From NCBI RefSeq assembly GCF_000226095.1, contig NC_016472.1, forward strand, positions 1,922,001 to 1,986,000: a stretch of 64,000 nt of DNA, in the 5' to 3' direction. Below are positions 4,822 through 62,511 of the stretch, piece by piece (position 1 is the stretch's first letter; every line of letters begins with the position of its first letter). The notes below the pieces were generated by a model. The model was given only the letters and a program-made list of their open reading frames with translations, searched no databases and was not told the origin of the DNA. The DNA is from Thermothelomyces thermophilus ATCC 42464 (Eukaryota > Ascomycota > Sordariomycetes > Sordariales > Chaetomiaceae). Made by a program: the position numbers and the translations under genes.

Positions 4822-7800
4822 ATGCGGGAGCACCGTCGCCGCAGTCCGGAAAGCACCCGCAGGCGGCGCGCCGAGCGTCGGCGGTCGAGGGAGCAGCTCG
4901 CCGCCGCCGCCGCCGCCGCCCTTGCCGAACGCGCCCCGGTGTCTTCGCGTTCGCACCGGCGCGCCCGTGCCGATTCGAGCTCGTCGTCGACGTCGTCTAC
5001 CTCGTCGACCTCATCCTCGTTGATGAACATCTCGCGAAAGAGCCGCTTCGGCATCCGCTCCTTCTTTGCCTCCTCCTCGGTGAAGAAGGTTAAGAAGCGC
5101 CGCTCCTTCCGCAGGAAGAACACATCGTCGTCCTCGGTTGACAGCGACTTGGCCTATGGCACAGGCTACATCTCCAGATCCTCCTTCGAGAGGCAACAGG
5201 CCAAGTACCAGCAGCGCCTCCAAAACCAACACCAACACCAACATCAGCACCAGCACCAGCACCAACACCAACACCAGCCCCCTTACCATGCTCAGCAAGA
5301 CCCCCAGCCCTCCCAGCATTCGCATTCCCATCCCCCCCACCACTCGCAGCACCCCCAGCATGGCCCATACCCTTCGCAGCCCGGAGCATCACCATCCCAC
5401 CACCCCCCGGAGCAGGACCCGTTGTTCGGACCCGATGGCCGGCCGGCGCTGCACAGGGCCCAGACAGACGAGGAGATTCTCGCCTTGGGCCGCAGGCTCT
5501 CGGACCTGGCGCGCGCTCAGAACCTCCGGGATCTCGAACGCGCCGGCAAGAAGCGCCCGTCCCGCTTGGTAGCCGGGGCGGCGGCGCTGTCCGAGTTCAA
5601 CCGACAGGGTTCCCACGGCCATGCTTCCAGGGGCCTTAGCTCCTCCAAGCCGCACGCTCGCCACGAGGAATCCGACACAGAGTGGGAGTCCGCTTCCGAT
5701 TCCGACTCCGACTCGGAATCCTCGAGCGATGTCGATTCCAACCTGGTCTATGGGCCCACGCCCAAGTTCTCGGACCCCAGCCTGCCTATCGACGACCGGT
5801 CGCAAAGCCGGCCGACCAAGGCGCCAGTCATTATCTCCCAGCCGCCTCCCGAGTCCATCCGCCCCCCGCACCGCAAGAGCTCCGCTGTCGACCCAGCCAT
5901 GTTCGGCCCTGTCAACTCCCTTCGCGGCTACGTCGACACTCCGTGTGGTTTCCGTCCTGGGGATTACCCGCCTCCTTCGCACAGCCAGACGGACCTCCGA
6001 GCGCCCCCGTATGAGCCGATCCCTCAATCAGAGAGTGCATCCATCGAGGCCAGGCCGATGCGGAATGTGTACCCCGTCCCGACCACCGACGCTGCTCGCT
6101 TCGAAGCGGCCCCCAGCTCCTCGGGCGTGTCCGTCCCCTTGGCCGGTCCCGCGGCGCCCTCCACGCCGACTCGCCGGGACAAAACCGGGGAGCGAGATGA
6201 CGATGGCGCCCTGTACTCTAACCGCTCCGAACCTGTCCCGATCCAGGCGCCCAAGCCGAGGGTGCCCGTGTCACCCCGCGTGCTGGAGGATCGCCGAGCC
6301 GCGGTGGAGCGGGAGCAGCAGGCCCAGCAGGGCAGTCCCCGCGAGCGCCGGTCGAAGAGGGCGCGTGACTCGGACCGGAGGAGCGCCGTGGAGACTGTCG
6401 TTTCCGGCGCGCTGTCTGCTGTCGTCGGTGCCGCTGCCGGAGCGGCCCTGGCCGGCGTTGTTGAGGACAGGAGGGACAAGAGACGGGACGAGCGCGACTT
6501 TGACAGACGGGATGAGAGGCGCGGCTGTGACGATCGACATGCCCGCCCGGCTCCTGACTGGAGGAGTGTTGCCGATACGGCCCCCGTCGTCCCCCCATCG
6601 CCCGCTGCCTCCGCCACCTCGAATGCCATCGGTCAGCGCGAGCTCGATGAACTCCGCGCCAAGGAAGCCAGCTTGCGCGAAGAACGCCTGCGCTATGAGC
6701 GCGAAGCGCAGCGCCACCGCGAAGCCCGCGAGCGCCTCGAGGCCGAAGAGCGCCGCCGCCAGGAGGAGCTGGAGGGGCGTCGTCGACAGGAGGAGTTGGA
6801 CGCGCGCCGACTTCGCGATAATCCCGAGCTTGCCGACATGTATGAGCGCCGTGTGCGCGAAGCCCGCGAGATCCGCTACAAGGAGGAGCGCCGGAGCCGG
6901 GATGAGCAGCGCGCCGCCCGATCGGAGCATGAGCGGATGGCCAGGAGCGCCGAGAAGAAGCGCGACCGCGAGGAGAAGCGCAAGCTCGAGTCCGCCGACT
7001 ACCAGGAGGAGCGTAGCCGCGAGCGCGAGGAGCGTCGTCGCTTGAAGGGCAAAGACGTCGTTGCCGCGGTCGACGACGACGAACGTGGCCGCAGCCACGC
7101 GTCTAGCAAAGAGGTAGTGCCACCCCCCGGTCCTGAGGAGAGAAAGCCGGGAGGGCTGGAGCCTGAGGCGGCCAAGCCTAGCCGCGAACAGAGACGTGCG
7201 GAGCGCGAGAAGACCCGCCGCATGCTCGAGGAGATTCAGCGGCAAATCGAGCTCGAGAAGAAGCGGCTCGCCGAGCTGGACGCGGGCAGAGAGCCGCCCC
7301 CGGCGACTGAGCGTGCTGAACCTGGTCCTTCGACCAGCCGGAACGATGGGGTTGACCCATTCCAATACCAGGTGGCGGACGACGCCTTCCCAACTCCTGC
7401 ATACAGCCCCCCCCAGAGGTCCATCACTCCCGTCATCTACACCGTCGAACGCGAGCCCGAGTGGGCGCGCGAGGAGGCGACGAAGGACGACGAGCCTGAG
7501 GAGGAGCGACTGAGCCGGCGCTGTTCGTTTGAACGGGAGCAGAGGGAGGCCCAGGCCAGCGCCAGCGAGACCCGCCACTCCGCGATTCCGGACGAGGACG
7601 GCGCGGTGGAGCGCGCTCGGTCCCGCTCCCGTGAACCCCCGCGGCCCAGGGATCGAGAACCTGTCAGAGACCCCGTGCAGGAGGAGGCCAACCGACTCTA
7701 CCGCGAGAGCAGGATTTCCCAGAGAATGGCCGAGGAGGAGATGCGCTCTCACACGCCCTCGCCGACCAGCTCCGTCGTCGATAAGTACGAAGACACCGAG

Positions 7801-10800
7801 GACCTCGCCGAGGACCCCATCGGCCGCATCGTCACTCCGCCCGAGATGAAGCGTCCTCCGCCAAAGAGCAAGTATGACGGCCCAAATGCTGACGTCCGCA
7901 TCGACAACATCATCACGCCGCACGACCTGCACAAGTTCCTAGCCCCGCCTGCCGATGCGTCTGGGCTCGGGCCCGTGATGATGCCCGTTTTCAAATCCCG
8001 GGACCCGTCCTGCGAGCGCGAGCGGCCGATGCTCAACCTTGTTCTCCCCACCCCTAGGACCTCGCCATCGCTGGAGAAGATGAAGGCTAGGCAGGCGGCA
8101 GCCCAAGCCGCTGCCGACGACGCCCCGTCCGAGGACGAGAAGAGGACGGAGGAGCGCAAGCCCCACGTCATCATCGACCGCCATGGCCAGGTGGTGGAAG
8201 TCCCCGAGGACTACGCCACCGGGCGAGCCGTGGAGACCGACAGCCGCGATTCATCTCAGGAGCGCCCCGCGATCAGGTTCAAGTTCGCTGGCAGGAAGAA
8301 GAGCGCTTGGGGGAGCCTGATTGCTGCCGCCGTCGCGGCTGCCGCTGTCAAGTCGAAGGGGAAGAAGCCGGGTGATGCGGAAAAGGCCGTCGAGGACAAG
8401 GGCAGCGATGCCGCAGAAGCGGATAAAGATAAGCCGCGGGATGCGGAGCCCGTGTCCGAGCGAAAGCCCGAGGAGACCGCTGCTCCAGAGGCGCATCCGT
8501 CGGCCGAAGCGGTGCCGGAATCAGCAGCCCCGGCTGCGGTCCCGGAGCCGGCGCAGGTAGTACCCGACGAAGCCTTGCCGGACACGCAGCCCGAGCCAGC
8601 GGCCCCCAATGTCTCGCAGGAACCGTCCACCCCTCCTCGCTGGTCACGGGTCCCCTACGAATTTGACGACGAGCCCCCTCAGGTCGGCCCGAAACCCTCT
8701 AGCCCTCACTCTTCGTCCCAGATGCCGGGCTCCTTCGAAGAGGACATTGAATTTACCGCCACCCTCGCTGCCGGCCTACAGAGCTCGGGGTTTAACCCTG
8801 ACATCGTGATTCAGGATCCCACTTACCGCAGGCGAGACTCCCCTCCTGGGTCGGACGAGCCCCGGTATGTGCCTCCGTCCTGCGAGACGGTGACAGATCT
8901 CGGCATGGAGTCCTCGCACCAGGACGGTACCGCTGGGGGGCCTGACGCGCCCCTCCTCGAACGCGTGGCTCCTGTTGAGGGTTCTTCTGCCGCTGAACAG
9001 AGCGAGAAGCCCGGGGGCGAGGACGACGACACAGCGCCCGCGACCGAGGTTGTCGAGCCGAGTGCGGAGGCATTTGTGGCTGATGCCGACGACGAGTGGT
9101 CAACGAGGAGTCTCACAGAGTCGAAGAAGCCAGAGAGCGACCATCCCGGCTCTTTCGATTCGACGACGTACTCTGGCCCGTCCTCCGAGGTGTCGGTGGC
9201 GAGCTCGGGCAGCGGGAAAAAGAGGAAAAGCAGCCGCCGCAAGAGCACCAAGGACGCCTACGAAATACCGGAGCAAGGTGAGCCACCGGATCGACCCGGC
9301 GATTCTTTTCAGTGGATCGACCGAGAGGTGAGCTCGGTCGTCTCCGACCCGACCGGCAAGACCAACGGCGGCGGCGGCGGCCACCACGACACCAAATCCG
9401 TCGTGTCGCTCCCTACCAACGGGACCGGCGAGCACCGCGAACAGCCGACCAAGCACAACGGCCATGGCGAGGAGGAGGATTCTTTTTTAGGTAATGCCGG
9501 CACCTTTGGCGCAGGTGCCGGCTATGCGGGAGCCGTAGCAGTCGCCGCCGCTGCTCAGCTTTCCCGCCCAAATGCCACCCAGGACTCCGTTGAGGAGGAG
9601 GAGGTGCAGCCGTTTCGCCGCGCGCGTAGCATCAGCTACAGCTCGCAGACCGTCGACCCGGAAATCGTCCAGCGCGAAATCAAGCCCGCCATCGACCCCC
9701 AGTACGGGGATCTGCTCCCCTTGCCTCCCAGCGAGCCTGGTTCACCTAAGTTTCTCAACAACCTAAGTGCAGAAGAGCATTCCTTCCCTTCCCTCCCCGA
9801 CAGCGACGAGGAGTCGCCGCCGCCGCCGCATCTCCAGCAGACCCGGCCTCGTCGGGCCACCGTCGCCCACACCCACGCCCGCCGTCGCAGCGCCATTGAA
9901 ACGCCCAAAACCCCCAGCCGCACCGCCGTCCCTGTCCAGTTCCGCATCGGCCGCGGCTCGGTCCCTTCTTCCCCCGTCTTCTTCCGCTTCTCACCCATGC
10001 ATTCCCCCGTCGCACCTGGCAACCCCGATACTCCGGGTAGCGCCTCTCCCCGCAGGAGCCGCGTCAACCGGCCGACTTCGTGGGATAGCACGCGAGATTT
10101 CAAGCCTCTCTACCTGCTGGAGAAGACCGCAGCGGGCTCCGCCGCTCATGGCGCCGCCGGTCCCGCCCAGTCCGAGGAGTATCCCGAGCTGCCGCCTAGC
10201 GAGCCGTCTTCGAGGGAGAGCCCGGGGCCCGAGTTCGCGGAGCGTGAGGATGATCTGGATTACCTTGGTGTCGGGCTCAGGGTCGCCGCCGGTATGGGGG
10301 CGTCCGCGGAGCTGTTGCAGGCGTTGCGCATCGACACGACCGGAAAGGGCCTCGATGTCGGTGCCGGCGAGTCCGGGTTTGGGGAGCTGCTGGGTTCGGG
10401 GGACACGACGCCCAGGGCGGCCGTTCCGCCTCCGCATAAGTTTGACGCTCCTCCAAGGGAGTTGTCGACCGAGGGCGAGAACGTACACCCCACGGAGGAG
10501 CAGCAGCAGCAACAACAGCAACAACTTGTGAAGGAGCTGGAGACGTTGCCTCCGCTGCCAGATAGCCCCGCCGATTCGCCAACTTGGTCCCCACCATCCC
10601 CGGATGCCACCGCCCAGGCTCCGGCTGCTGCGCCCGTCTTTGAGAGCTTGGAGAGCTTACCCGCCCTTCCCGATAGCTCACCGGCATCGCCTCGTGTTCG
10701 GAGTTTGCCTCCGGCCCCTGCCCCTCCCGTGGATGATGACGGGGAACCGGAACATCTGCTCCCTCTTCCTGAGAGCTTTTTGCCGACCTCGCCTCCCCTG

Positions 10801-13800
10801 GCACCCTTGCCCCCGACATCTGCGCGGCTGCCGGCCAATGAAGACCTGGAGAAGCTGCCGGCCCTTCCTGAGAGCCGCTCCTCATCTCCGGTTATGGGTA
10901 GGTCTCCCCTTTATTCGAGTTAGGTAGGCTTTCCGTGAAGAAATACGTCTAACAGACATGCCAGCGCCCCGCGAAAGCAGCCCCGTGTCTCCGAACCTGC
11001 CGCCGTTTGGTCTTGCGACCGCAGAGTTCGTGACGGTTGTGGAGTCCGACAATAACCAGCTGCCGCCCCTCCCAGAGAGCGGTACCAGTTCTCCTCTTCG
11101 ACCGGCACTCGCCGCCCTTACGGGCTCCGAGCTTGCTGGCGCCGTTGAGCTGGGTGAGAGTCGCACGGCAGAACTCACTTCGGCGGCAACACAAGCAGTC
11201 AGTTGGGAGCTAGACGAATTGCCCCCCCTACCTGAGAGCCAAACTGCCTCCCCTGTTTCATCAAAAGCCTTTCGCACCCCCACCCAAGTATCAGCAGACG
11301 ATGGATTGGAGTCCCTACCGCCGCTTCCCCGGAGCCGCCCGCTCTCTCCTGTCCAGGAAGCGCCGACTCCGGTTGTCGAGCCTCTGATGCGTCCGGCAAC
11401 AACCCCTGAGCATGTAGAGGAGCTGCCTGCCGCCCAAGGACCTGGCTTTGGGCACGACCCCAAGAACCTGCCACCGCACCCGGAAAGCCGTCCCAGTTCA
11501 CCTACCGAGGTAGAGCTAGCACCCAATGACACCGTTGAGCCTTTGTACCTGCTTGCCCCTGCTGAATCTCCCATCGAGAACGCTGCATCTACACAAGAGC
11601 AAGGCCTCGTTGTGGACCTGGAAGGGCTACCTCCTCTTCCAGAGAGTCGACCCAGCTCACCAATTGAGGAAGAAACTGGTTCACGGGAAGTTGCCGACCT
11701 CCAGTCTGCCATTGAAGAGCCTGTTTCGACGCAAAATCCTGGCCTTGCGACAGATTTGGATGAGCTCCCTCCACTACCCGAAAACCGCCCCGAGTCCCCT
11801 GCTCAACGAGACGTGCCCGCCGTTGAAAATGTCACTTCTCAGCTTGCACCTGTGGCCAGTTCTGATGAGCGAAAGGCCGAACCAAACTTGGAGGACCTGC
11901 CTCCGCTGCCGGAACCCCGTCCTGGCACTCCCGAGCAACCGCCAGCTTCGCAAGCTGCCTTGGAGGAGGGGGCCTCAACGGCGCCGGCTACTACTCAAAC
12001 GGACAGAGCACCTATTGTTGAGGTCTTTAGACCCGGATTTAGCCAGGAATCTACAATTCAAGCACGTGATTTTGCCATAATGCCTTCACAGGATCTTCCC
12101 TCCAGCCAAGTCTACCAGCCTCCTTTGACCTACGAAGAACTCAAGGAGAAGGGGTTCCACAAGCGGATACCAAGTCCTCTTCCCACGGGCAGTAATGACA
12201 AACAGGAAGATTGGGACCCCGCCGAGAAGAGCAGATCCAACCTGCTGGGCCCTGCCGCTGCTGCAGTGGCTGCCGCCACGGCGAGCGGTCTGGTCGTGGC
12301 ACACATGCGCCACGACGATTCGACTCCCGGCCCGCAAGGTCTCGACTACGACAGGCTACAGACACCCGGTTACGACAAGGCGGAAAGCGTCTCCTCGTTC
12401 AATGAAGATGCTTCCACCGTTGCGGCATCGGAAGCGCCTACTTACTTGTCTGGTTCAACGTTCTACGACGCGCAGCATGACACCGGGAAACTCGAAGACT
12501 CGCCGCCGCGGCCCGGCACTCTCGCCTATCTCCTGAGCAAGAGAGGCCAGAAGTCTCAGGTGCAGGAGGATGACTGGTCTGCTGTGGGCTCCTCATCTCC
12601 TTCGAGGAAGGGCAAGACAAGGTCCTTGCTAGAACCCGAGCCCACGATCGGGGTACAAGACAAGCGGGCCCCGGGAGAGGCATCAGATGTGCGTAGTCAA
12701 GAGGGCCCAGGCCAAGGGTCATCAATCTCTGCTGTTGAAGCGGCCAAAGCGACAGGGCCGTCCGAATACGAGCCGTTTTCCGGCGCGCGCAAAAGGGGCA
12801 AGAAATTGGGAAGCAGAAAGGAGGTCTCGTGGACCGAGCCTGCGGGAGAAACTCAACAACCGAGCCATGCCGGTGAGTCTCTGTCCGAGCCCGTGACCTT
12901 CCGATCCACAGTTGAGCCCGGCATGACTGCGGGCGAACCAAAGCAGCACCCGACCTCCGAGAAGTCGGTCTCGGACCCAGCTGGTTTCACCTACAGGTCG
13001 GATGCTCGGGAGTCAACCCCCACGCTTGGCAAGAGAGGCAAGAAAAAGAAGAGAGACAACGGGCCAGATGCCAACTTGGAAGGACCCGGCAGCGCGGATC
13101 GCATTCCAGACCCAGTCCGGGAACCTCACCCGGCTGCAACTCTGCACGAGGTTGCCCGAGGCGCATCACCACCTCAGCACGTGGGGCCACGCGAGCTGTC
13201 GGGATCAGAAGGAGACTTACCTCGCAGCTGTGACGCTGTGGAAACAAGTCCGGCGGAGCCAGCGGCCGAGGAGGGCCCCGGTTCACGGCCCGCTTCATCT
13301 GCAGCCGCAGATGCCGAGGCCAAGGAGCAGGGGCAGCGCGATCGAGGCCTGCAGGAGGCTCACGCCGCACCGGCTGAACCAGCCAAGCCGAAGAAAAGCC
13401 TCTGGGGCCCCTCATTCTCGATGCTCCCCTCCATCGCTGGCGGCGTTGGCTCTCTCTTCGGCAGAGGAAAGCGCAATTCGGCCCAGGCGCAGGCGCAGAC
13501 TCGAGATGCCGAGAGGCGGGAAGTCCAGGGCCAGCTGAAGGCCGAGTTGCCTCGTGATACTGGGTTGCCCACGCAGGAGAATGACCAAAAGCAACAATAC
13601 AACACGGCCGTAGAGTCGATGGAGATGCCCAAGCCTCCACTTCGGCCGCCAAGTGTAGGCGAGTCCAACAGCCAGATTCCCGATGTGGGGCATGCAACAG
13701 GCGTGCATGAGCCCCCTGACAGCGACAAATCAGGGGCCGACACGGCAAGCTGCGCGCCAGACACCGCTGTTTGGATACCCAACGAGCATGGCCCATCCCC

Positions 13801-16800
13801 TGAGATCTCCACACCCGGGGCTGTCGACGGGGTGACGCCCTCGGATGCAGCACGCCTCGAGGCTGTTGTGGTGGACAGCGCCGACCGGCAACGCGGGGGG
13901 CCTGAAGGTGAGCAACCAGACAAAAGCGCACCTCGGTCGCCAGGCCAGTCCCAGACCTTTGCGACGTCAGACGAAACCCAGCATCCAACCGTCGACGACG
14001 CTGCCGTCGCCACTGACGCCGGTGACCAACCAACCGAGGCCATGGGAAAGAAGGGTAAGAAGCAGCAGCAGCAGCAGCGCAAGGACGCGCCCAAGGACAC
14101 GCCCAAGGGTGAAACAACAACAACAACAACAACACCCCCCCAGGAGTCGACACAGAAGGCGGCCACCCCACCAGCACCAGAGCCGCCAGCTGTCCACGAG
14201 GCTGGCCAACAAGATGTCGTTCCTGGACAACACACCAATCCGGAGCCTACGGCATCCACCGAGCCCGGTTCGGTGACTGCCCACCAAGCCGGTGATGACG
14301 ATACATCCGCCGAGGCTTCTGGCAAGAAGGGAAAGAAGTCCAAAAGCAAGAAAAAGAAGCAGGCTGCGGCTGAGCCCGAGGCCGATGCGACGGCGGCCCC
14401 GGAACCTGCCGTTGCCGAGGCAGCACCGGAGCCTTCCCCTTCCGAGAACCAGGCCCCAGCCGAGAGCAGCGAAGTGGTTGACAGTAGTAGTCCTTCTGTG
14501 GAAGCGCCGCAAGACGCTGCCCCGCCTGAACCAGCGCATGCTAGCAAAAAGAGCAAGAAGAAAAAGAAGAAGCAGGCTGGCCAAGACGGATCTGAGGCAC
14601 CCGCCGAAGCCGCCGCAGACCACCAGGGCACCCTTGCACCCGTAGAGGAGCCGGCTCTTGTTGTGGACTCGCCGCCAGTTGAGAATGCATCTGCTTCTGC
14701 TTCACAGGGAGATTCTGGCAGTCTTCCGCCCGAGGAAGTCGTGGAACCAAGCAGCACCGGCAGCAAGAAGTCGAAAAAGAAGAAGAAGCGCGGATCGCAG
14801 TCTCCAGAAGAAACAGAGACTCGAGAGAGCCCGGCGCAGGTGCCATCACCAGAGGCCGCGTCACCAACCACACCTGCAGATACCCCAGGGGAGCCGGACC
14901 TCCAGGCACCGGAGACGACGACTGAGCCTGCAGAGGCGGCCGTTGAGTCAACGGCAGCGGCCGCTGAGCCCGAAGTAGACACTCCAAAGGATTCAGAAGC
15001 GGAGAAGACTGTGTCATTCAACATTGACGAGCAACCGACTAGTCTCGGCGACAACACAATACAGGAGGATGCTCCATCGCCAATCCAGGACGCGAGTGAC
15101 CCGTCTACAACCGGGCAAGGCAAGAAGGAAAAGAAGAAAAAGCGGCAGAGCGTTAGCTTCGCGGAGCCTCTCGAGGAGCATCTGGGCTCTGCCAAGCCAA
15201 GAGGTGAGGACGACAGTAAGAATGACATCAACAACAACAACAACAGGAGCAGGAGCAGCAGCAGCAGCAACGAAAAGACCGAGGACTCGAAGGACTCCAT
15301 CTCCGAGCTTTCCACGGTTTCCCCGCAAAGCGGCGACTCTGTTGATGAGCGGCCCGCGCAACCAGAGACCCAGATTCCCAGCGCTCATGTTGGTGTCACT
15401 GTTCCCTTGCCTAACACGCGCGACGTGCCTGATGCCTGTGTTGACACGGAGTCGCTGCAGGAACCTACCGAGCCGCTCGGCTCTCGCTCCCCCGATCCGT
15501 CACCGGAAAATGAGGCGCTCAGTAATGTCGTTGGCCAGGATGCTCAGCAGTCGGCAACATCAGATGAGACCCAGGCTGATACTGAGGTTTCGGAAGAGAG
15601 TAAGTTTGTACATACACGGCCGGCCGGCAGTTGAGGTTAAGGTATTAGGTAGGCGGGCTTGTTTGCGCTGACTCTGCTGTTTGTTATAATAAAGAACTTC
15701 CAAGCGAGGAATCAGCCGCGGTCGGTGCCGAAACCAACCCTCCGGCTTCTTCTCCCAAGAAATCCAAGGAGAGCAAGAAAAAACGCAACAGCCTGTCGGA
15801 TCCGGAGACCGGGCCGGCAGCTATGCAGCAGCAGACCCAGCCGATTCCCGGTGAGCAAGGTGACAATGCGGAGCGCGCCCCTGAAGCTGCCGCCCCTGAA
15901 GCTGCCGCCCCACCGGAGGCTACCGAGAGCACCACTGAACCACTGCCAAGTGGTGCAGCGAGCGCCGAGCCCGCACCAATTACAGCCGCTCTAGCCGCCG
16001 AGCAGCAGCAACACGAACCACTCGTCGACCGGGAGCCTGACCTTGAGCCTATTGCGTCTCAATTACAGGACAACAAGAAAGACGGTAAGCAGAGGACAAT
16101 AACATTTTTTTTTTTTTTTTTTGGTTTTCACTCACGATATCTTCAACGTTGGGGGACTGTATGCTAACTGGCTTCAAGGACTTTCTACGTCTCGGTCCGC
16201 TGTTGATGAGACCCAATCATCCGTGCAACAGGACACCGCGGCCCAATCAAGCGAGGGTGAGCCCCCCCCCCCCCCGGCCCCCCTTCCCCTTCCCTTAGGG
16301 CCACACACACTATGAACTCACAACTCACATGAGGTCACAGCTTCTGGGGTAAACATCGCAGCACCACCATCTCCAATTGAGACATCGGATGAAGCTCAGC
16401 CAGGTCATACCGTGCATGAACAGCCCTCCTCTTCCTCGGACCCAGAGCCTCAACCCGACTCCGCATCCCAGGACATGGCTCGCGAAGAGGATCGGTCCCC
16501 TTACAGCCTCCTCAACAAGACCAAGAGGAAGAGGAAGAAGCCCAAGGCTGACGCAGAACCATGGCCCATGGGATCCCCGGAACTACCCGTGGCTCAGCCA
16601 CCCGAGATCCCCCCCTCCTTCGAGAGCCGCGAGTTCGACCGCGTCTTCGGCACACAGCTCAGTACTGTCGAAGAGGTGACCGAGCCGCCGTCCGAGTGTG
16701 CCGAGAGCGACGGCCGCTCGCTCATGTCCAACGATGACAACAGGTCCGTCCAGCGCCGCAGGTCGGTCGTCTCGGAGTCCTCGCGCACCATTTCCTCCCT

Positions 16801-19800: not shown

Positions 19801-22800
19801 AGGCAAGAAGAGCAAGAAGAAGAAAAAGGGCAAGGGCGCAAAGGCTGCTGCCGAATCCGAACCTGCCTCGCCGGCTGACACGACGCCAGCGCAAGAGACG
19901 CCCGCTGTTGTCGAAGAGCCCAGCGTTGCCGCTGGGGAGCCTGCTCCCGCTACCGAGGACTCGGCCACTGCCACTGTCGAAGAGCCCAGGGCTGCCGCCG
20001 AGGAAGCTGCTCCTGCTACGGACGAACCGGCCCCTGCTACGGACGAACCGGCCCCTGCTACGGATGAACCGGCCCCTGCTACGGATGAACCGGCCCCTGC
20101 TACGGATGAACCGGCCCCTGCTACGGACGAACCGGCCCCTGTTATTGAAGAAGCAGCCGTCGTCGTGGAGGAACATACCCCGGTTACCGAAGAATCTGGC
20201 CAGGGAGATCAGCCGGCCGTTCCTTCGGAAACCGAGGCCGCGCCTGTTGTCGAGGCCACTCCGCCCGTACCCGAGCCCGTGAGGCAGGAAACGCGACCCG
20301 AGGAACCCCAGGAGGCACCAGCCAGTAAGAAGTCTAAAAAGAAAAAGAAGGGCAAGGGATCTCAGGTCCTTGAACCCCAGCCTGAGCCTGAACCTGCCGC
20401 TTCTCCTGCGCCACTCGAGGAGCAGCCCGTTACCGTCGAGGAGTCTGCGCCCATTGCTGAAGAAGCAACGGCTGCCATTACCGAGTCAGCCGCCGGTGAA
20501 CCCGAGGTCCCGAATGTACCAAGCGCCCCTGTTCCTGATGTGCCCAGCTCTCCCGTCCCTGAGGTGCCCGGCGAGCCTCCCCCTGAAGTTCCGAGCGAAC
20601 CGGCACCTGAAGTTCCAAGCGAACCGACCCCTGAGCCGCCGAGTGATCCGGTCACTGAGAGACCAGCCTCCGTTCCCGAACAAGCGCCCGAGGAGACTTC
20701 TGCTCTGCCGACCAAGAAGAGCAAGAAGGACAAGAAAAAGAAGAAGGGCAAAGGCCCGCAGACACCCGAACCCGAGCCCCAGGCTGATACCACCTCCGCC
20801 GCTCCTTCAGAGGAACAGTCGCCTGTCGAGGAGGCTGCCCCGGCTGCCGAGGAACCCGTCCCTACCGCCGAAGAATCAACTCCCGTGGCTGGAGAGTCTG
20901 CCGCCGTGCTCGAAACGTCTGCTCCGCTTGTGGAAGCCCCCCCTCCTATCGTGGAAGAGCCGTCTTCCGCCGTTCAGGAACCTGAAGTGACGGTGCCCAT
21001 GTCCGCTGAAGAGGCTTCGCCAGTCACAGACGCGTCGCAGCAGCAGGAGTCCCAGCTCGCAGAGGGCACAGAGCCACAAACCAAGAAGTCCAAGAAGAAG
21101 AAGGGCAAGAAGGGAAAGGGCAAGGCTTCCGAACCCGAGGCTGAGCCTGTGAATGAGCCTAAATCCGAGCCAGCTGCTGAGATCAACCCGCCATCGTCCG
21201 AGGAGACCGTCAATGTTGCGGAAGATGCTGCCCCTGCACCTCCATCCGAGGAGCGTGTCGTTCCTACGGAAGAGAAGACCGCCCCTGCGGAAGGACCTAG
21301 CGCCCCTGCCGCTGCTCCTGAGGAAGTGGTGCCGGTGAGCGAGACTACGCAGCCAGAGGCCAAGGCCGAAGACGAACCGGTCGTCGTCGGGGGAAAAAAC
21401 AAGAAAACGAAAGCCAAGATTGCGGCGCTCATGTCTATCTTCGAGCCTGGACCAGCAGCCAAGCCTGCTCCTACTGTGAAGCCGCGGCCTGCTCTGCGTG
21501 ATTCCCTTCCTTCCGATAAGCCCGCTCCTGCCGATGAGCCAGTTCCTGCTGAGCAGCTTCCCCCCGTTGTCGAAGAGCCTGTCACTGCCGAACAGCCTGC
21601 TCCCGTAGCCGAAGGAGTCAAGCCCGATGTTCAGGAATCTGTTGCTATGGACACGCCAACTCCTGCACTGGAGGGAGTGCCCGCTGTCCACACCGACGAA
21701 TCGAGCGCGGCAATCCAGGAGCAACCCGAAGCAGTACCGGAACCAACCTCTACTCCTGAGGAGCCCAAGCCCGAACCTGCTCAGCAAGAGGTGCCAGCCG
21801 ATCAGGAAACGCCCGCGCCGACCAAGAAATCCAAGAAAGACAAGAAGAAGAAGGGCAAGGGCACAAAGGTCCCTGAATCGGAACCTTCCGCTCCTCAGGC
21901 CCCAACCTTTGCGGAAGAGTCCACCCCTACCGAGCAACCGACGACCTCCCAGGAACCAGAAACCGAGGGTCCAGCTGAACCATCGACTGAGCCGGTCGCT
22001 GCCGAGAAACCAGCCCCTCCTGTGGTTGAAGAGCCAGCACACGCAGTGGTTGAGGAGGTCAAGCCAGCCGAGCCTAGGTTGGCAGCCCAACCGGAGCCCG
22101 AACAGGCTCCGGATGTACCTTCTAAGAAGTCCAAGAAGAAGAAGAAGGGCAAGGGATCCAAGACTGTTGAACCCGAGACTTCTGGAGCAAGCACACCCGC
22201 CGTCGTTGAAGAGTCGGTTCCAGTTCCCGAGGAGCCGACGCCAGCAAAGCTCGAGGTTGAGACTCCGGCAGAGAAGCCTGCAGAGACTGCCGAACTCCTT
22301 CGTCCGGAGGCCACCGAGGCGGTTCCGTCACCCGACGCCGGCGAGACCATCGCAGCTTCCGAGGCTGCTGAGCAATCCACATCCACGGCAACGGATGAGC
22401 CTAGCTTTCCCTCCGAAACTTCTCGGGACCAACAAGATGGAGGTCTCGACCTCCCCACTAAGCCCGTTGAATCTGAGGCCGCCTCGGAGCCTGTCGCCCC
22501 CCCTCTCGAAGAACCAGTCGTTCCGGAGGAGCCGACGATTCAAGAACCTGTTCCGGAGCCTGCGCCCATCGAAGAGACGTCATCCGAGCAGCCTGCCCCA
22601 GTGACCGTTGAAGAGGTTGCTCCGACTCCCGAAGTAAGCCAGGACGTGCAGCATGAGCAAAGCTCTGAGTCCCAGACCAAGAAAAAGAAGGGGAAGAAGG
22701 GCAAGAAAGCTGCTGCCGAGCCCGAGACGGTTTCTCCTCCTGCGCCTTCCTCTGCTCCAGAGCCCTCTCCCATCGCAGTCGAGGAGCCAGTCCCTGCACA

Positions 22801-25800
22801 GGAATCACCACCTCTTGAGAGCCAGCAGCCGCCCGTCGATGAGCCAACAGTTGAGACTTCTCCCACTGTCCCTGCCGAAGCGCCAGCTCCTGGATCGTTG
22901 CAGAGCTCACAGCCTGAAGTGGTGTCTGATATCCCGGCCAAGAAAAAGAAGAAGAAGAAGGGAAAGACGGCCTCTCTTGAACCCGCGCCGGAGCCTGTTT
23001 CTGATCCTGCACCGCCAGCCACCGAGGAGGTGGTCGCTGTCGCGGAGGAGCCACCCACCTCAACTGGCGAGGACGCGAAGCCAGCTCCCGAACCGTCGCA
23101 GCCTTTGGACGAGCCAACAATTGAGCAGCCTACCTCCTCCGTCCCTGTCGAAGAACCTCACTCAACGCCGGAAGCTCCCCCCGAGTCCGCGGCTGGCGAA
23201 GAGCCCTCTCAACCTTCTAACGAGTCTGAGGCCCCAGCTTCGGAAGTTCCGGTCAGGGAACCACCAGCCAACGAGGAGCCCGTTGAGGACACAACTAGGG
23301 ACGCGGTGAGAACTTCAGCGGAAGCGCAGACAGAGCAAGTGTCGGACCAGCCAAGCAAGAAGTCCAAGAAAAAGAAGAAGAAAGGTTCCAAGGCCTCTGA
23401 CTCCGAACCCGCCTCCGGTACTCTCACCCCTGCACAAGAGCCCGAGGTACAAGAAGCGGCACCTGTTGTGGAGCAGCCAGCAAGCATTCAGGAGACGGTT
23501 GGGACTAGCGAAGAGGTGCAGACCACCAGCGGCGATATTGAGCAAGGCCCCGCGCCCGCTGAAACCGAACCCGTAAGTCGAAGTCGAACTCTCGTCGAAG
23601 ATATCTAACCGAAACTGATTTCAATGTTAACATATGCCCAGGCCCAAGCCGCTGAGCCTACTACCCTTGCCGAGGATCCGGCTCCCGTCGTGCCCGACGT
23701 CAACGAGGGGACAGAGTTTCAGAAGGCTGTCTCTGATTCCCTCGAGGCCACTCAGCCAGAAACCCCTGCCAACGAGTCCTCTGCTGTTTCAGCTAAGCAG
23801 AGCAAGAAGGCCAAGAAGAAAAAGAAGGGCAAAGGCAAAGATGCCGAGCCTGAGCCTGAAAAGCCCTCAGCCGAACAACTGAGCTCAAGCGTTCCTGAGC
23901 CTGAGACAACGGAACCGGCCAATACACCGGCTGCAGACCACGATGCCGGCGCTCCGGAACCCATCCTTGTCGAGGAGGCCCAAGGAGCCCAGGATCAGGA
24001 CACAACCAGGGATCTCCCGGAGAACAAGCAACCAGAAGGTCAGCCAGAGGTTCAGAAAGAGGTCCAACCGGAGGTCCAGTCAGAGGTTCAGCCAGAGGTA
24101 CAACTGGAAGCTCAACCAGAGGTTCAGCCAGAGGCTCAGCCAGAGGTACAACCGGAGGTTCAGTCAGAGGTTCAGCCAGAGGTGCAACCAGAGGTACAAC
24201 TGGAAGCTCAGCCAGAGGTTCAGCCAGAGGCTCAGCCAGAGGTACAACCGGAGGTTCAGTCAGAGGTTCAGCCAGAGGCTCAGCCAGAGGTACAACCGGA
24301 GGTTCAGTCAGAGGTTCAGCCAGAGGTGCAACCAGAAGTGCAACCTGGGGAGGCCCACGAAACCGTCTCGTCGGAAGCACAGCCGCAAGTAGCTCAAGGG
24401 GAGCCCATCACAAAGAGCAAGAAAGACAAGAAAAAGAAGAAGGGCAAGAACAAGATTGCCGAGCCCCAGCCTGAACTGGAGCCCACAAATCCCAGTGTCC
24501 CCGAAGAGCCCACTCCGGAGCCGACGGATGATGCAATACCTCTGGAACCCGCTGTTGCTCGTGAGGAACTTCCACCAGCCGACGCGCCGGAGACACCCCA
24601 GGAAGTACCCAGTGGTATTCCGCTCGAATCGCAGCCTGAAGAAGCCACAGAAACTGCTCAACCCGACATGCAGCCTGCAGAAGTAAATGAACCTGCTCAG
24701 GCGGATACGCAGCCCGAAGAGGCGCAAGTGAGCCCAGCTAAAAAGAGCAAGAAGGACAAGAAGAAGAAAGGCAAGAACAAGACGGCCGCGACGGAGCCTG
24801 AACCTCAACCTGAGTCCGAACCTCTCAGCAGCCCGCCTCCCGATGCACTGGACTCTCCTGATCCCAACGCGCCGGCCTCTGTTTCTGTGGAAGATACTAC
24901 TAGCGCTCAGGTTGAAGAGCATATTGAAGAGCCGGCCCCAGATGTCTCGGGCTCTCTCGAGCAACGGGCTCCTCAGGAAATGCCACAAGATGCCGCCGAA
25001 GATGCGCCGGTTGCGCCGACAAAGAAGAGCAAAAAGGACAAGAAAAAGAAGAAGGGCAAAGGTCCTGAGTCCACCCAGCCTGAGCCTGAGATGGAACTTG
25101 CGGTTGAACCAACACCTGAGACGTTGGCCGAACCCCTGCCGGAGCCCGCTCCCGAGACCGCTCCCGAGCCCGCATCCGAGTCGACCGTCATTCCCGAGGC
25201 AGAGGCTCCTCTTCCTACGACCGTCGAGGATCCGACCGTTGCGGCCGACAAAGATGCCGCCCCTAGTGCTCAAGAACCGCTTCAACAGCCCATAGCTGAG
25301 GCGTCTCATGTTCCGCAGCAACAACAGCCGGAGCAGATCCCCGAAGAGGAGTCCCAGGACCTCCTGGCAGCGCCTGCAAAGAAGAAGGGGAAGAAGGACA
25401 AGAAGAAGAACAAGGCTGCGGCCCTGGTGTCCATGCCTGAGTTCGAGACGACTTCTCAACCTTCCACTGACTCGTCTCGAGATGTCGTTCGAGATGTCGT
25501 TCCGAGCCCCGAGCCCGCCCCCGAGCCCGAGCCCACCTCCGCCCCTGAACCCGCCGTCGCGGAGCCGGCCGAGTCCCAGATTCCAGTCGCCGTCGAGTCC
25601 GAGGAGGTGCCTGCCAGCGAGGCCCAGCAACCCGCGCAAGAGTCTAGTTCAGGGGTTGCGGATGCTCAATCAAAGGAGCTCGATACCGCGGTGGAGCAAC
25701 AGCCGCAGCCTGAGGAAGCACAGGACGCACCGATCAAGAAAGGCAAAAAGGGGAAGAAGGGCAAGAAGAACAAGGCTGCTGAACGCGAACCTATCCCTGA

Positions 25801-28800
25801 GCCTGCTCCTGAGCTCGCTGCTGAGCCTACTCCTGAACCTGCTGCGGAGCTTGTTGCTGAGGCTACTCCTGAGACAGCTGCCGAGTCGGCTCCTGAGCCT
25901 GCTACCGAGCCCGCTGCAGAGCCTACTCCTGAGCCTGCCACCGAAACTGCTGCTGAGCCCGCTCCTGAGCCTGCTGCAGAGTCTGCTCCCGAACTCGCTA
26001 CCGAGCCTGCTGCCGAGCCCACTGTTGATGCTACCTCCGAGCCCACGTCGCAACACGAACCGGCTGCTGAACCTCCTCTTCCTGATTCCGCAGTTGAGCC
26101 AGAACAAGCGGGCACCGAGTCACAAGAGCTTGCGGTCTCTGTTCCCGCCGTGCAGGAGGAAGCTACCCAAGAACAAACCGGAGAGGCTATCACCGAGCCT
26201 AGTGGTGTCCAACCGCAAGATCTCGGCGCCACGCCTGCGGAGCAACCAGAGGAGGCATTGGGCGTGTCTGTCAAGAAGGGGAAGAAGAAAAAGAAGAGCA
26301 AGAACAAGACCGCTTCTCCCGAGTCGGAGCCTGACACGGCGCCTATGTCTGGGCCCGTATCGGCATCCGCCTCCGAATTCGTCCCAGACGCTAGCCCGAC
26401 TGGTGATGTTCAGGAACATATCAAGCCAGAGACCGACGCATCACTCGCCGCTGTCGCTCCTGATCAGGAACCAACCTCGCATGAGGTCAGTCAAGAGCCA
26501 ACCCCGGAGGGCACGGGTACTCATTCAGGGGAGGCTGACTCGTCATCTGTGCCACAGCAACAGGCGGAGGAGACCCAGGATGCTCCTGTCAAAAAGGGCA
26601 AGAAGGACAAGAAGAAGAAGAGCAAGAACAAGGTTGCTGTTCCGGAATCCGAACTGGAGGCCGTGGCCGCTCCCGCTCCCGCTCTCGAATCTACGCCTGA
26701 GGTGATGGCCGAGTCCGAACCTAAGGGCACCCCGGACCAGCCCATCTCTGGGGAAGATGCTCCGAATCCATCCGTCTCGGTGGAAGAAAACATCAGCGCC
26801 GATGGTCCAGCTCAGGAAACAACTACGGAGATCTTGGATGCTCAAACAAGAGATCTTGGTAGCGCAGCAGAGCCGCAGCCGCAGCCCGAGGAGACGGCGA
26901 GCGTCCCGGCCAAGAAGAGCAAGAAAGACAAGAAGAAGAAGGGCGGCAAAGGCAAGGCTACTGCGCCCGAGCCAGAACCCGCAGCCGAGGCATCCCCAAT
27001 CGTGGAGGCACCAGCAACCGAGACCTCTGCCCCCGTTGTTCCGGAGCCCGAGACCCTGACACTTAGGGGAGTTACCGACGAGCCTGCCGTTGAGGCTGCG
27101 ACTGAGGCTGCGCCCATGCCAGAACCTGAGTCTACCACTGAGCCGGTTGTCGAGGTCATTACGGAGCCTGGCACAGATACCGTCGTAGAAGTCGCAGCTC
27201 CCGCTTCCGAGGTTGTAATTGAGGTCCCTACTCCAACAGAGCCTGCTCCCGAAACCGTAGCAGAGGCCGCCCCGGAATCTAGCTCAGAACCCGTCGTGGA
27301 ATCTGTTGCCGGACCTCCTGCTGGACCCGTTCCTGAGCCCATCACCGAACCCGCCACAGAGCCTGTCACCGAGCCCATCGCTGAGGCCGGTCAAGAGGCA
27401 CAAGTAGAACCCGAGGTGGCGCCTGCAAAAAAGGCCAAGAAAGACAATAAACGCAAGGGTAGCAAGCAGCTTCTTTCCGAGCCTGCTCCCGAGGCCGAAG
27501 CACTCAGCACATGCCAAGACGAGATCGTTGAAGCGCCCACCGAAGAGGTCGAGGCCGTCCAAGAAACATGTATTCCGGATGCTCCAACCGAGGAAGCCAT
27601 CCAGGGGGAAAGCAAGGCCGACGACAACCTCTCGACCGAGTCCGCCAAGAAGTCAAAGAAGGGCAAGAAGAAGGGTAAGCAAGCAGGTCTAGAGCCGGAG
27701 ACCGAAGTTCCGGCAGCAGAAGCCGAGCCGGTCCTCGACGTTCACGAACCACGGGATGTCTCTCTCGACGACGAGGAAGCCGTCTACGGCGGACCGAGCC
27801 GTGAGGACGGGGAGACTTCACCCATCAAGGAGACCGAACTTGGGGACGTCGAACCCGGCGAGGCCTCTTCCGTGTTGCCCGGCAAGAAGCCAAAGAAGAA
27901 GAAGAAGAAGGGCAAGAAGGCGCTCGAGCCTCTGATGGGTTCCGAGGATGTTGCGGGGACGGCAGCCGAGGAGGCCTCCACTGCCCCGGGACCACTGCAA
28001 GACGAGGCGGCCCCCCTGGCTCAAGAGGCACCTGCGCAGGTTGACGAGGCTCGTGGCCCCGAAACTGTGCAGACCGAGGAAACGCCTGAGACGTCTGTGC
28101 AAGTTCGGAAGGGCCCTGCTCCTGAAGGTGTGCAAACTGAGGAGGCGCCTGTGGAGGAGGTTGAGGCGACGCCTGCGCAGGTGGAGAGCGACCCTGTTCC
28201 TGAAACTGTGCAAGTTGAGGAGACGCCTGTGCAGGTTGAGAAGGCCCCTATACCCGAGGCTGTCCAGGTCGAGGAGGCTCCCGGTCCTCAGGAAGAAGGT
28301 CAACAAATCAAGGAGATCCCTCCTTCGTCGGAGTCTGTCCAAGTGGACGACGAGTCCGCTCCTATGCCCGAGCCCGTCCAGACTGAGGAACCAACAGCTC
28401 GTGAGTTGGTGGTGGAAGAGTCCACTCCTGGTGCTGCCGATGGCGCTGCAGCAGCAGAGGCAGCGAAGGAGGAGGAAGTGGTCGAGTTCACTGGCAAGAA
28501 ATCCGAGAAAGACAAGAAGAAGAAGAAGAAGGGCAAGAAGACGGATTCGGCCATTACGTCTGGCTCAGAGACTCCGCAAAGTCAGGAGGAACCGTCCATT
28601 GCGGATGTCGGTCCGGCAGCAGCGCTTGGCACAGCCATTACTGCGGGTGTTGCTCTCGCTGGAGATGAGGCACCGACGCCAAAGGAGGCCGCCGAAGATG
28701 ACTCTGGGCTTGTCGGAAGGGAGAGCAGGAAGGACGAGAAGGAGGAGGAGGAGGAGGAGGAAGAGGAGGGCGGGAGCCCCGTCGCAACGACTGGGGACGA

Positions 28801-30891
28801 AGCTACGCCTGAGGCGAGCTGGAGCAAACAACAGGTTCAGACCGAAACAGAGAAGCAGGCAGAGGTCGCTGAAGGCGGGCCTACTGCAACTATCGAGGAG
28901 ACGGGCGCAGACATGCCGGTCGACAAGATGCCAAGCAGCCGACGGCAAACCCCAGGCGTCGAGAAGGTCGAGATGCAACCTGCAGTGTCGAGAGCCGGAC
29001 GGTCACCGAGTCTTGGCCCGGCAACCATCGGCCTGGGCCTCATCACCAACCCACCGGAGCCGTACCCCGAGGACGGGCCATCGCCGAAGCTCCTCAGCGG
29101 GGTTCATCAGGCTCCCTTCTCGCTCGACGCACAACTGGAAGCGGCGCAACAAGCGGACAGGGAGACGGGACCATCACGAGAGGGCCGCCGCATGACCCAT
29201 GAACCGCCGTTCGAGTACGATACGAAGCGGAAGAAGGTCAAGACAGAGGAGCTGGAGGCTACGGAGATCTCGGAGCCGGTCATCTCGGCTCGCGAGGTGG
29301 AGGCCTGTCTCGGGGAAGACAAGGGTTCGGGAGAGGAGGTCAAGAGGGACGTGGTGGTGGTGGAGGAGGTGGAGGACGAGGGTGGCGTCAGTGCGTTGCC
29401 GCCCGGCGCGCCGCTTCCTGAGGGTGGTGCTCCATTGCGCCCTGCGGAGAAGTATGGAGACGAGCAGGAGAGACAGGAAGGGGAGCAGGGCAGCACGGGA
29501 GTGGTTGTTACGGAACAGGAGAAGCAAGCAGGAGAGGAGGTCTTGGGTGTTGAGCACGCTACGATGGAAGTGGACCAGCGGGAGCAAAAGGAGATGGGGG
29601 TGGAACAAGAAGAGCACGGAGAGCCAGCAGAGCCTAAGGCTGAGAGGAGCACCGAGGAGCGGGCAGACGACGAGGAAGCGAGCATGGTCGTCGAGTCTCT
29701 CAGCGGCCCGGGCCTGGGTCGTATGGATTCCGAAACGATCCCGAGGTCACTCCGAGAGCCATCAGCCGCGGGGGAGCTGTACGAGGAGGAGGAGAAGAAG
29801 AAGGGGAAGGAGAGGCGGGAACGAACGGCATCACCAGAGCCGACGATGCAGCGAGCTTTCTCGTTCCCGGACGACATTGCGGACGAAGAGGTATTCAGGA
29901 CCAGAAAGATGGAGGAGGAGGAGGCGGAGGACAAGAAAGTGGACGAGGCGGAGGCGGCGGCGGCAGCAGCAGACGAGCCGGTCCGGCTCCCGCCGCCGTC
30001 GAGCTTCGCCGAGTTCATGCGGTCGCAGACTAGCCTGCCGCCGGTGCAAGAGGAGCTCTCAGACAGCGAGCCGAGGGAGAGGGAGACGGAGCAGGAGCAA
30101 CAACAAGGAGAGCGGACAAAGGCAAGGGCGACGACCTGGCAACACAAGCGAGGCAGTCTCGAGGTTCCGGATGCGCCCGAGCCCCAGCGGGACAGCGGGT
30201 TCTCGTCTGGGTCCGGGCACCTCTCGCAGCCGCTGGGAGGCGGCCACGAAGCTCTACGGGACAGCGGTGTGCAGGGGCGGTCAGCGTCGCCGAGAAATTC
30301 CGGGGAGCGAGAGATTGGAGACTGGGACGGAGAGACAAGAGAAGTAGGACGAAGAATTGCCGGGGGGTCATCGTCGTCACCGTCACCGTCACCGCCGACA
30401 CCGCCGCCGACGACGACACTGCCGACGACGACGATGACAACAATGACGACGACGACGACAATGACGACGATGAGCGGGCAGCGCGGCAGTGGACAGCGCG
30501 GCAGTGGACAGCGTGGTGGCCAGCGCGGGTTTGGCGCCGTCGTCGGGCCCGATACACCTACACCGCGCCTGCACGAGCCCTCACCGCCGCCGCAGACTCC
30601 CGAGCCAGAAAAATTGCTGGTCAGCAAAAAGCGGGCCTCGGTGGCGAGCCTGCGCAGCAGCCCGACCGACCACAACACAGGCCAATCGCCGCGGCCCGCC
30701 GACCCCGCCGCCCGCCGGGTGCCGTCCAATACCAGCGTGGCCCGCCTGCGCACCCCAGAGCTGCCTGCGTCGCGGCCTGACAGTCCAGGCAGCGCCATTG
30801 GCCTTGCCAGCCGCCGCGGAACCACCCCACCGCTGCAGCTCCGCCGAATGGACAAGCGTGCCAGCGGCGACCTGCGCGCCGTGTCGCTCAG

Positions 30892-30940
<49 letters not shown>

Positions 30941-33005
30941 CAGCGAGACTCGCGGGTCTGGGTCTTGGCGGCGGCCGACCAGCACCAGCAGCAGCAGCTT
31001 CAATCCTCGCCGCTGCCCACCACCACCGCAGCATCAGCAGCCGCAGCAGCAGCAGCCGCTTCTTCAACCACCTCTGCCTCTCGAGCTGCTGCGTACAGCA
31101 CGACGCCCGTCGCTAATGAGGGCCGTGTCCGCGCCAAGGACATGACCGATGTCTACGTAAGTTTAATCAATTCTGGTTTTTTTTTATTTCTTTTATTTCT
31201 TTTTGGGTATTCTTCGTCCCATGTTTATTCATCTTTCTCCCCTCATTTGCTTCGTCCGATGGATGGATTGAATCGATCGATTCAATCCATCCATCCATGG
31301 ATATCCATCCATCAATCCAATCATCCCATCAATCAATCTCCCTAACAATCGCATTTTTTTTAAAAAAAAAAAAAAACACAAAAACAAAGAACAAAAACAA
31401 AAAAATGCTAACCCGGCGCCCGCTTGCCCGCTTCAGGATGGCTACGGCGAGGGCCGCATCGGCTCGCCGCGCTCCCCGACCCGCCCGCACAGCATGCGGC
31501 GCCGCCAGAGCATGCAGGTGCTCGAGCTCGAGGCCCGCGTCGAGCAGCTGCTAGCCGAGAACCGCATGCTCGCCGAGGCCCGCGCCCAGGCCGAGTCGTC
31601 GCACTCGCACCGCACCGCCACCGCCCTGGCCGAGCGCGAGGCCGAGATCGAGTCGCTCAAGCGCATGCTCAAGGAGGCCAACGAGGTCATCGACCGCCTC
31701 AAGCAGACAAACGAGGGCCTGCGCAGCTCCACCTCGGCCATCGCCGTCAAGCATCGGGAGGACCTCCGCCGCGCCGAGGCCGACCACGCCCAGACCGCCC
31801 GCGAGCTCGACTCGGCCCGCGCCTCGGCCGCCCAGCTCGCCCGCGCCGCGCAGGAAAAGGACGCCGAGATCGCCCGTCTGCGCGCCCAGCTCGACGCCTC
31901 GACCGCCCAGATCCGCGAGCTCCAGCAGCAGATCCTCGACCAGGCCCGCCCCGTGGACGACCCGGACTTCCTCGACCCCCACGACATCGACTACTTCGAC
32001 CACCGCTGCCAGCAGCTCTTCGCCCACGTCCAGCAGTGGGTCCTGCGCTTCTCCAAGTTCAGCGACATGCGCGCCTGCCGCCTCACCTCGGAGCTCAGCG
32101 ACGAGAAGCTCATCGACCGCCTCGACAACGCCGTCCTCGACGGCTCCAACGTCGACACCTACCTCGCCGACCGCGTCCGCCGCCGCGACATCTTCATGAG
32201 CGTCACCATGGCCATGATCTGGGAGTTCGTCTTCACCCGCTACCTCTTCGGCATGGACCGCGAGCAGCGCCAGAAGCTCAAGCACCTCGAGAGGCAGCTC
32301 GTCGACGTCGGGCCCCCGCACGCCGTCCGCCAGTGGCGCGCCGTCACCCTCACCCTGCTCTCCCGCCGCCCCTCCTTCAAGAAGCAGCGGGACCAGGACA
32401 CCGAGGCGGTCGTCCAGGCCATCCTCGACACCCTCTCCAAGGTCCTGCCCCCGCCCTCCAACCTCGAGGACCAGATCCAGTCCCAGCTCCGCCGCGTCGT
32501 CCGCGAGGCCGTCGGCCTGGCCATCGAGATGCGCTGCCAGCGCGCCGAGTACATGATGCTGCCCCCGCTCCAGCCCGAGTACGACGACACGGGCGAGCTC
32601 ACCGAGACCCTCTCCTTCAACGCCGCCCTCATGAACGAGGCCTCGGGCACCCCCGGCCAGACCAACGAGGAGCTCGAGGCCGCCAACGCCACCGTCCGCA
32701 TCGTCCTCTTCCCCCTCGTCCTGCGCAAGGGCGACGACCTCGGCAAGGGAGAGGACGAGATCGTCGTCACCCCGGCCCAGGTCCTCGTCGCCACCTCCCA
32801 CACCAGCAGGAGGGGGTCCCCCGCCTCCTCCGCCGCCGCCGGCAAGGGCGTCGGCCGCATGCTGACCCCCGTCTCGGACGCCGGCGGCGCCAGCCTCGAG
32901 GCCAGGAGCCTTGCCGGCGACAAGAGCCCCAAGGGCAGCGTCAAGGGCGGCGCCGGCCTCCACAGCGACCTCAGCATGGAAGGCGGCCCCGGCGGTTATC
33001 TCTGA
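4822..33005 (+). CDS. lah: Giant leashin-like Woronin-body tether (involucrin-repeat protein), about 9,167 aa
   Basis: Seven exons join in frame: 4822-10897, 10956-15599, 15695-16084, 16179-16256, 16341-23572, 23642-31156 and 31437-33005, totalling 27,504 nt. ATG 4822 is the first possible start after an in-frame TGA at 4780. Layout by residue: basic/Ser-rich N terminus with SSSVDSDLAYGTGYISR (about 98-114); Gln/His run (135-152); Gly/Ala hydrophobic segment (521-547); charged coiled coil (605-823); LPPLPxSxxxSP motif array (about 1632-2350); about three dozen Lys-rich motifs separated by Glu/Pro/Ala-rich spacers (about 3054-7776); low-complexity tail; C-terminal coiled coil (8665-8813) and a conserved helical domain (about 8817-9053). 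The N- and C-terminal blocks match fungal proteins annotated as involucrin-repeat protein, the leashin family. In Neurospora, LAH-1 tethers Woronin bodies to the cell cortex and LAH-2 marks the septal pore and apex. The architecture and the nearby TERT gene support this identity. The unsplit state is inferred from frame continuity and needs transcripts. Confidence 0.85.
5224..5277 (+). repeat. Gln-His codon repeat in lah exon 1
   Basis: A CAA/CAG-CAC/CAT hexanucleotide-type repeat encodes alternating Gln and His, nine pairs, residues about 135-152. It sits just after the conserved N-terminal block in a disordered region. Codons are mixed (CAA and CAG), so it is not a pure microsatellite. Confidence 0.9.
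9715..11935 (+). repeat. Array of LPPLPxSxxxSP-type motifs in lah
   Basis: At least a dozen degenerate copies of a Leu-Pro-rich motif recur every 25-70 residues across the exon 1/exon 2 junction. Examples are LPPLPDSPADSP, LPALPDSSPASP, LPALPESRSSSP, LPPLPESGTSSP, LPPLPESQTASP, LPPHPESRPSSP, LPPLPESRPSSP, LPPLPENRPESP and LPPLPEPRPGTP. The LPxLP core and terminal Ser-Pro are kept while spacers diverge, which points to selection on the motif. Possible roles are SH3/EVH1-like docking or proline-directed phosphorylation; neither is shown by the sequence. Confidence 0.85.
20012..20140 (+). repeat. 21-bp tandem repeat, six copies, in lah exon 5
   Basis: Six nearly identical 21-bp units encode the heptad DEPAPAT. 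They differ only at a C/T third codon position (GAC versus GAT). The low divergence marks recent expansion, and copy number is likely to vary between strains. Confidence 0.95.
24050..24349 (+). repeat. 12-bp (VQPE) tandem array with higher-order structure in lah exon 6
   Basis: Twenty-five 12-bp units encode V/A-Q-P/S/L/K-E tetrapeptides. An eight-unit block (96 bp) of the pattern VQPE VQLE AQPE VQPE AQPE is present twice in succession, followed by a partial third copy. This shows duplication of blocks, not only of single units. Confidence 0.93.
30364..30943 (+). repeat. Low-complexity cluster near the 3' end of lah exon 6
   Basis: Several simple repeats lie close together. A GAC/ACG-type run at about 30395-30471 encodes Thr/Pro/Met. 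A 15-bp unit at 30473-30529 encodes SGQRG. Nine AGCCAG hexamers at 30890-30943 encode (SQ)9. All keep the frame. Such a stretch usually marks a disordered linker before a folded domain. Confidence 0.88.
31258..31295. repeat. Perfect 38-bp palindrome in the last lah intron
   Basis: Two 19-bp arms are exact reverse complements with no spacer (31258-31276 and 31277-31295), centred on TCGATCGA. The palindrome lies in intron 6 (31157-31436), which at 280 bp is by far the longest intron of the gene. It is followed by further (CCAT)n and CAAT-rich sequence and an A14 run. A transcript would fold it into a strong hairpin. Confidence 0.92.

Positions 33006-36994: not shown

Positions 36995-37040
<46 letters not shown>

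Positions 37041-62479: not shown

Positions 62480-62511
<32 letters not shown>

Follow-up and report, generated by a model that had tools for sequence, protein, structure and literature searches.

A probable giant leashin gene of Thermothelomyces thermophilus with a regular array of lysine clusters in its linker

A seven-exon giant gene and its neighbours

The window analysed here, a 64-kb stretch of Thermothelomyces thermophilus DNA, carries on its forward strand a gene of seven exons (4822..33005) with a predicted product of 9,164-9,167 amino acids, which very probably is the leashin (lah) gene of this fungus. Its neighbours were identified mainly by domain matches: upstream lies a glycosyl hydrolase family 7 (GH7) gene (1092-2444, plus strand), and downstream follow a telomerase reverse transcriptase gene (35392-37403, minus strand; RVT_1 and Telomerase_RBD matches), a RhoGEF frame of 1,615 amino acids followed by a BAR-domain frame (41610-47673), which to judge from the sequence are probably one gene, a VelB-type velvet gene (54546-55642), a DUF3602 frame (57992-58483) and a uroporphyrinogen decarboxylase gene (61648-62707, minus strand). 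The velvet gene, in which an insert divides the velvet domain, was assigned by domain and PDB matches, and a 124-aa piece of it found VelB alone (4n6r_B) among PDB sequences at E<=0.001. A search of the 64-kb window for tRNAs found none, and an Rfam search of the same window gave no match at gathering score.

About 25 kb upstream of lah lies a WW-domain gene, which is a candidate for so. In Neurospora, genes with close NCU numbers are neighbours. The numbers NCU02775, given for VelB (PMC10819945), NCU02794 for so and NCU02793 for lah are close in this way, and one 30-kb deletion is described as affecting both so and lah (PMC10580951).

The gene contains no N in its sequence, and its structure was read from its splice sites. 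When donor and acceptor sites in the vicinity were combined in 256 ways, two of the resulting models were open from the ATG at 4822 through to the stop codon that ends at 33005, one of 9,167 aa (27,504 nt) and one of 9,164 aa, differing solely in their intron 1 acceptor. The AG at 10955 nearly adjoins a CTAAC branch-like box, while the AG at 10964 stands at a normal distance from it, and for this reason we regard the 9,164-aa model as the likelier one; 10964 is also the only intron 1 acceptor that passed the consensus scan. Seven exons with six phase-matched junctions and 27,504 nt in a single frame had been claimed in the original prediction and were borne out by the splice combinations, as was a protein near one megadalton, for which we computed ~0.97 MDa with a net charge of -731 (9,167-aa model).

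All exons lie on the plus strand. Exon 1 (4822..10897) encodes the N-terminal part and is followed by exon 2 (10965..15599, starting at 10956 in the 9,167-aa model), two small exons, namely exon 3 (15695-16084, 130 codons) and exon 4 (16179-16256, 26 codons), the long exons 5 (16341..23572) and 6 (23642..31156), and exon 7 (31437..33005), which encodes a coiled-coil-like stretch, a hydrophobic segment and a non-repetitive tail. The introns between them (1, 10898-10964; 2, 15600-15694; 3, 16085-16178; 4, 16257-16340; 5, 23573-23641; 6, 31157-31436) have phases 1, 1, 1, 1, 0 and 0. Introns 2-4 are packed, together with the two small exons, into 741 bases (15600..16340), and since exons 3 and 4 both lie between phase-1 introns, skipping of either would preserve the frame.

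Codon usage, trained for each 300-nt window on the remainder of the same gene, gave the modelled frame the top score in 91 of 91 windows, so no non-coding gap is visible, the region of 15.6-16.4 kb included. GC3 alone is a poor coding marker here, with the modelled frame highest in just 32 of 92 windows; it is codon usage that discriminates. Hidden in-frame introns found no support either: a consensus scan of the spliced coding sequence returned two candidates, neither a multiple of three in length, against means of 9.5 candidates and 3.6 multiples of three in 60 global synonymous shuffles. On the genomic sequence the same scan recovered exactly three of the six model introns (1, 5 and 6), an insensitivity by which weaker introns could escape it.

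Leashin motifs, linker composition and the C-terminal exon

Scanning the protein with the Neurospora R1 consensus LPVDEDLDLLPALPES gave LPANEDLEKLPALPES as its top match, scoring 62; the highest score in 200 block shuffles was 40. Eight non-overlapping matches scored at least 30, all between residues 1900 and 2302 (10519..11785, plus strand), and the 200 shuffles averaged 0.3 such positions. In an open scan the R2/R3 consensus PEEVELPASP did no better than chance, with a best score of 29 against a mean best of 31.6 in the shuffles. When anchored on the lysine clusters described below it was raised just before them, at 3/5000 for the best offset and at 11/5000 and 17/5000 for two further ones, a signal that is weak after correction for 80 offsets. 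The protein as a whole is giant and acidic, with complex ends and a repetitive P/E-rich linker, as is characteristic of leashins; leucine is low in this linker and alanine high.

Profile searches of exons 1, 2, 5, 6 and 7 against Pfam returned no family over the cut-off, and in exon 7 the ten families found, mostly of coiled-coil type, were every one below it. An involucrin-repeat C terminus, as originally proposed, did not hold up: the repeats are central, exon 7 consists of the coil-like stretch and the non-repetitive tail, and no involucrin match appeared in Pfam at E<=0.1 across the same five exons. Searching exon 7 against PDB sequences gave no convincing match (best E 0.81), and bacterial/archaeal and viral contigs, neither collection being fungal, held no relatives of it. 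The 363 C-terminal residues, modelled from the single sequence, gave no usable fold (pLDDT 38).

By hydropathy, exon 7 contains the segment IFMSVTMAMIWEFVFTRYL (32190..32246, plus strand), 252 aa before the C terminus. The anatomy resembles that described for Aspergillus fumigatus Lah, in which a coil and a membrane segment precede a 219-residue tail (PMC5345055), although, compared by description, the hydrophobic segment is weaker in T. thermophilus. With a mean hydropathy of 1.30 it is modest and ranks fifth in the protein; by analogy of position, IFMSVTMAMIWEFVFTRYL is a possible candidate for the equivalent of the A. fumigatus membrane segment.

Given R1 motifs well above chance, an acidic linker, a tail preceded by a coil-like stretch at the C terminus, and VelB nearby, the giant protein is very probably the T. 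thermophilus leashin, and the R1 repeats, the tail anatomy and the VelB neighbour support the original assignment of the locus. Homology here rests on motifs and anatomy, as compared with the repeat consensuses printed by Ng et al. (PMC2690989) and with published descriptions. A giant acidic repeat protein of another kind, only resembling leashin, would account for the weak R2/R3 motif and for five pieces free of any Pfam family over the cut-off, but it leaves the R1 match, the anatomy of the tail and the VelB neighbour to coincidence, and we consider it highly unlikely. HEX-1, the Woronin-body core protein, is present in the genome (88% identity over 155 residues).

Elsewhere in the genome, the leashin C-terminal region has a weak second match on contig C7 (2875252-2875731) with 29% identity over query residues 291-461 and one in-frame stop; it is perhaps a paralogue of the leashin tail domain. 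Another open reading frame outside the window agrees with residues 2-504 of the PDB chain 7zn6 at 501 of 503 aligned positions, both mismatches falling no more than two residues from an end, and PMC10306062 links this entry to a laccase-like oxidase of Thermothelomyces thermophila.

An array of lysine clusters in the acidic linker

The least expected part of the leashin locus is an array of lysine-rich clusters. The linker holds 36 clusters of the KKSKKDKKKKGKG type, whereas 100 block shuffles averaged 0.2 and reached a maximum of 2. Thirty-five of them form a continuous series from residue 3145 (14321..28556, plus strand) with a spacing of 136 +/- 44 residues (CV 0.32, against a random mean of 0.83), and none of 10,000 random placements was as regular. 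The remaining cluster lies apart at 13022, 433 residues distant; it was excluded from the regularity test after the positions had been seen, so that the control covers the 35-cluster set only, and its inclusion raises the CV to 0.46. The clusters carry about +7 each, and the spacers between them contain 1.4% lysine and have an average charge of -24. Ng et al. (PMC2690989) do not use the word lysine in their main text.

This alternation could make the linker a regular charge-alternating spring, with 35 lysine clusters, one per 136 residues, set between acidic spacers almost without lysine, a reading that we offer as tentative and on the whole doubtful. The lysine clusters may fold back onto these spacers, or they may bind partners at the septum or the membrane, and cluster number would then set the length and stiffness of the tether. 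If the spring reading is true, the array should be continuous in a one-gene leashin and broken in a split leashin.

The clusters fall in exons 2, 3, 5 and 6, so that the array stands on both sides of introns 2-5, which leans towards a single protein. It also bears on whether the frame joins two unrelated adjacent genes, or pieces of genes, by chance splicing. Composition can keep large low-complexity frames open, and the alternative and antisense frames of this gene are examples, but composition and chance would have to produce the codon preference in all of the windows, the phase agreement at six introns and an array that spans introns 2-5 as well, and we find this reading barely credible. 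The three clusters of the series that look least typical by eye are those beside introns 2-4, at residues 3592, 3786 and 3909.

One leashin protein or two

In Neurospora, lah was originally predicted as one 10,821-residue protein (Ng et al. 2009, PMC2690989). That work demonstrated two units by tags, HA-fusion sizes, promoter fragments and RT-PCR, and also by a stop codon placed upstream of a working 3' tag. It reports bands of ~400 kDa for LAH-1 and ~450 kDa for LAH-2, a lah-2 promoter, and a 2,607-bp exon in a different frame that becomes open when intron 10 is spliced and that ends lah-1. Among species of known Woronin-body position, Neurospora and Sordaria belong in its scheme to the dispersed class, and basal lineages to the pore class. 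A commentary (PMC2694278) adds that most filamentous ascomycetes have a single lah protein and that the locus of Sordaria fimicola is split too.

As Ng et al. describe it, the Neurospora locus has much in common with the present one: a giant acidic locus predicted as one frame, with R1 repeats (18 in Neurospora, beside R2/R3 repeats), complex ends and a poorly conserved linker. The two differ in that Neurospora makes two proteins from a predicted 10,821 residues with a charge of -1088, whereas the T. thermophilus model has 9,164 residues and a charge of -731, shows no such single exon and has the lysine array. The same source gives 5,936-7,480 aa for leashins other than that of Neurospora, a range that the 9,164 aa predicted here exceed. 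That the DNA comes from a relative of Neurospora, as first supposed, proved right at the level of the order, Sordariales, but the families are different, Chaetomiaceae here, to which Chaetomium globosum also belongs, and Sordariaceae there.

From the open frame the original prediction had concluded that the locus seems to show the ancestral, unsplit state. The open frame stands, but the conclusion does not follow from it, since the Neurospora locus, likewise predicted as one gene, proved to be two units; an open frame is thus uninformative on split versus unsplit. The one-gene model that was proved wrong in Neurospora is equally the precedent for the main alternative, a split or dual-output locus in which one DNA frame yields LAH-1-like and LAH-2-like proteins. 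The first could, for example, end at a stop in a retained intron 2, and the second restart near the ATG at 16475, which is in frame and stands beside a less repetitive, codon-biased stretch after intron 4 (16487..16711, plus strand; GC3 0.79). Other less repetitive stretches of the linker begin near residues 2351, 2876 and 7901; the one after intron 4 has the highest GC3 of those listed and is the sole one within the lysine array, and 16475-16711 is in our view a candidate internal start site by its sequence. The least typical lysine clusters fall together with introns 2-4 and the codon-biased stretch, and the position of these clusters lowers the odds of one protein and raises those of a split.

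By size, residues 1-3570 would amount to 384 kDa, near the ~400 kDa band of LAH-1, and the part from ATG 16475 to 568 kDa, above the ~450 kDa band of LAH-2. The truncations reported by Ng et al. place the Neurospora break nearer the middle of its locus. Across the region the coding signal is unbroken and the array resumes beyond the introns, and Chaetomiaceae lie outside the group with a divided leashin. The array nevertheless leaves room for internal ends, because related repeats, as the same paper describes, occur in both LAH-1 and LAH-2.

Among single alternative frames within the leashin gene, no exon of Neurospora size (2,607 bp, 869 codons) was present. The longest alternative forward frames have 499 and 535 codons; in 200 local synonymous shuffles, 162 reached the first of these lengths and 22 the second. 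The 535-codon frame, which lies over exon 7, was considered as a lah-1-type exon and rejected: none of 200 global shuffles matched it, yet the local ones did, the discrepancy arising because GC3 varies along the gene. Taken with the position of the species outside the Neurospora/Sordaria group and an array that spans the intron cluster, the lack of a single exon of that size makes the unsplit state likelier than the split one, and we hold a split locus to be unlikely.

The probable reading is therefore that the locus is a leashin gene whose product is one flexible tether of ~9,164 residues from the wound-plugging Woronin body to the septal pore rim. It builds on what is seen directly at the locus, namely the gene structure, the continuous coding, the R1 repeats, the linker composition and the array. 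The N-terminal part (exon 1) would bind the Woronin body, by analogy with LAH 1-344 (Ng et al. 2009) and, as expected of a leashin, through the receptor WSC; the long acidic linker would span the gap between Woronin body and pore, and at the C terminus the coil and the hydrophobic tail would anchor the protein to the pore rim. Published Neurospora and Aspergillus work is the source for the binding partners, the position at the pore and the single transcript assumed here. For an unsplit leashin the model of Ng et al. (PMC2690989) predicts Woronin bodies tethered at the pore. The nearest case in that paper is the leashin of Chaetomium, of the same family, Chaetomiaceae, whose Woronin-body position is known and falls outside the dispersed class; the reference cited there for this position concerns septa of C. 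brasiliense. Among the literature on Woronin bodies together with Thermothelomyces or Myceliophthora thermophila, no leashin-focused paper was apparent by title or abstract start.

The T. thermophilus leashin is a large addition to a known family, probably in the state expected for it, and the locus offers a cultivable outgroup from the same order for the leashin split of Neurospora. It also corrects a tempting argument, in that at the leashin locus an open frame gives no evidence of a single protein. The estimate of Ng et al. for leashins of 600-800 kDa is a span near 200 nm, and a tether of ~0.97 MDa, longer than these, is a testable figure.

Two antisense frames within the gene are a separate observation. 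The longer has 674 codons (13360-15384, minus strand) and was equalled in 3 of 200 local synonymous shuffles in that register; the other has 419 codons (12987-14246, minus strand) and was equalled in 4 of 200, likewise in its own register.
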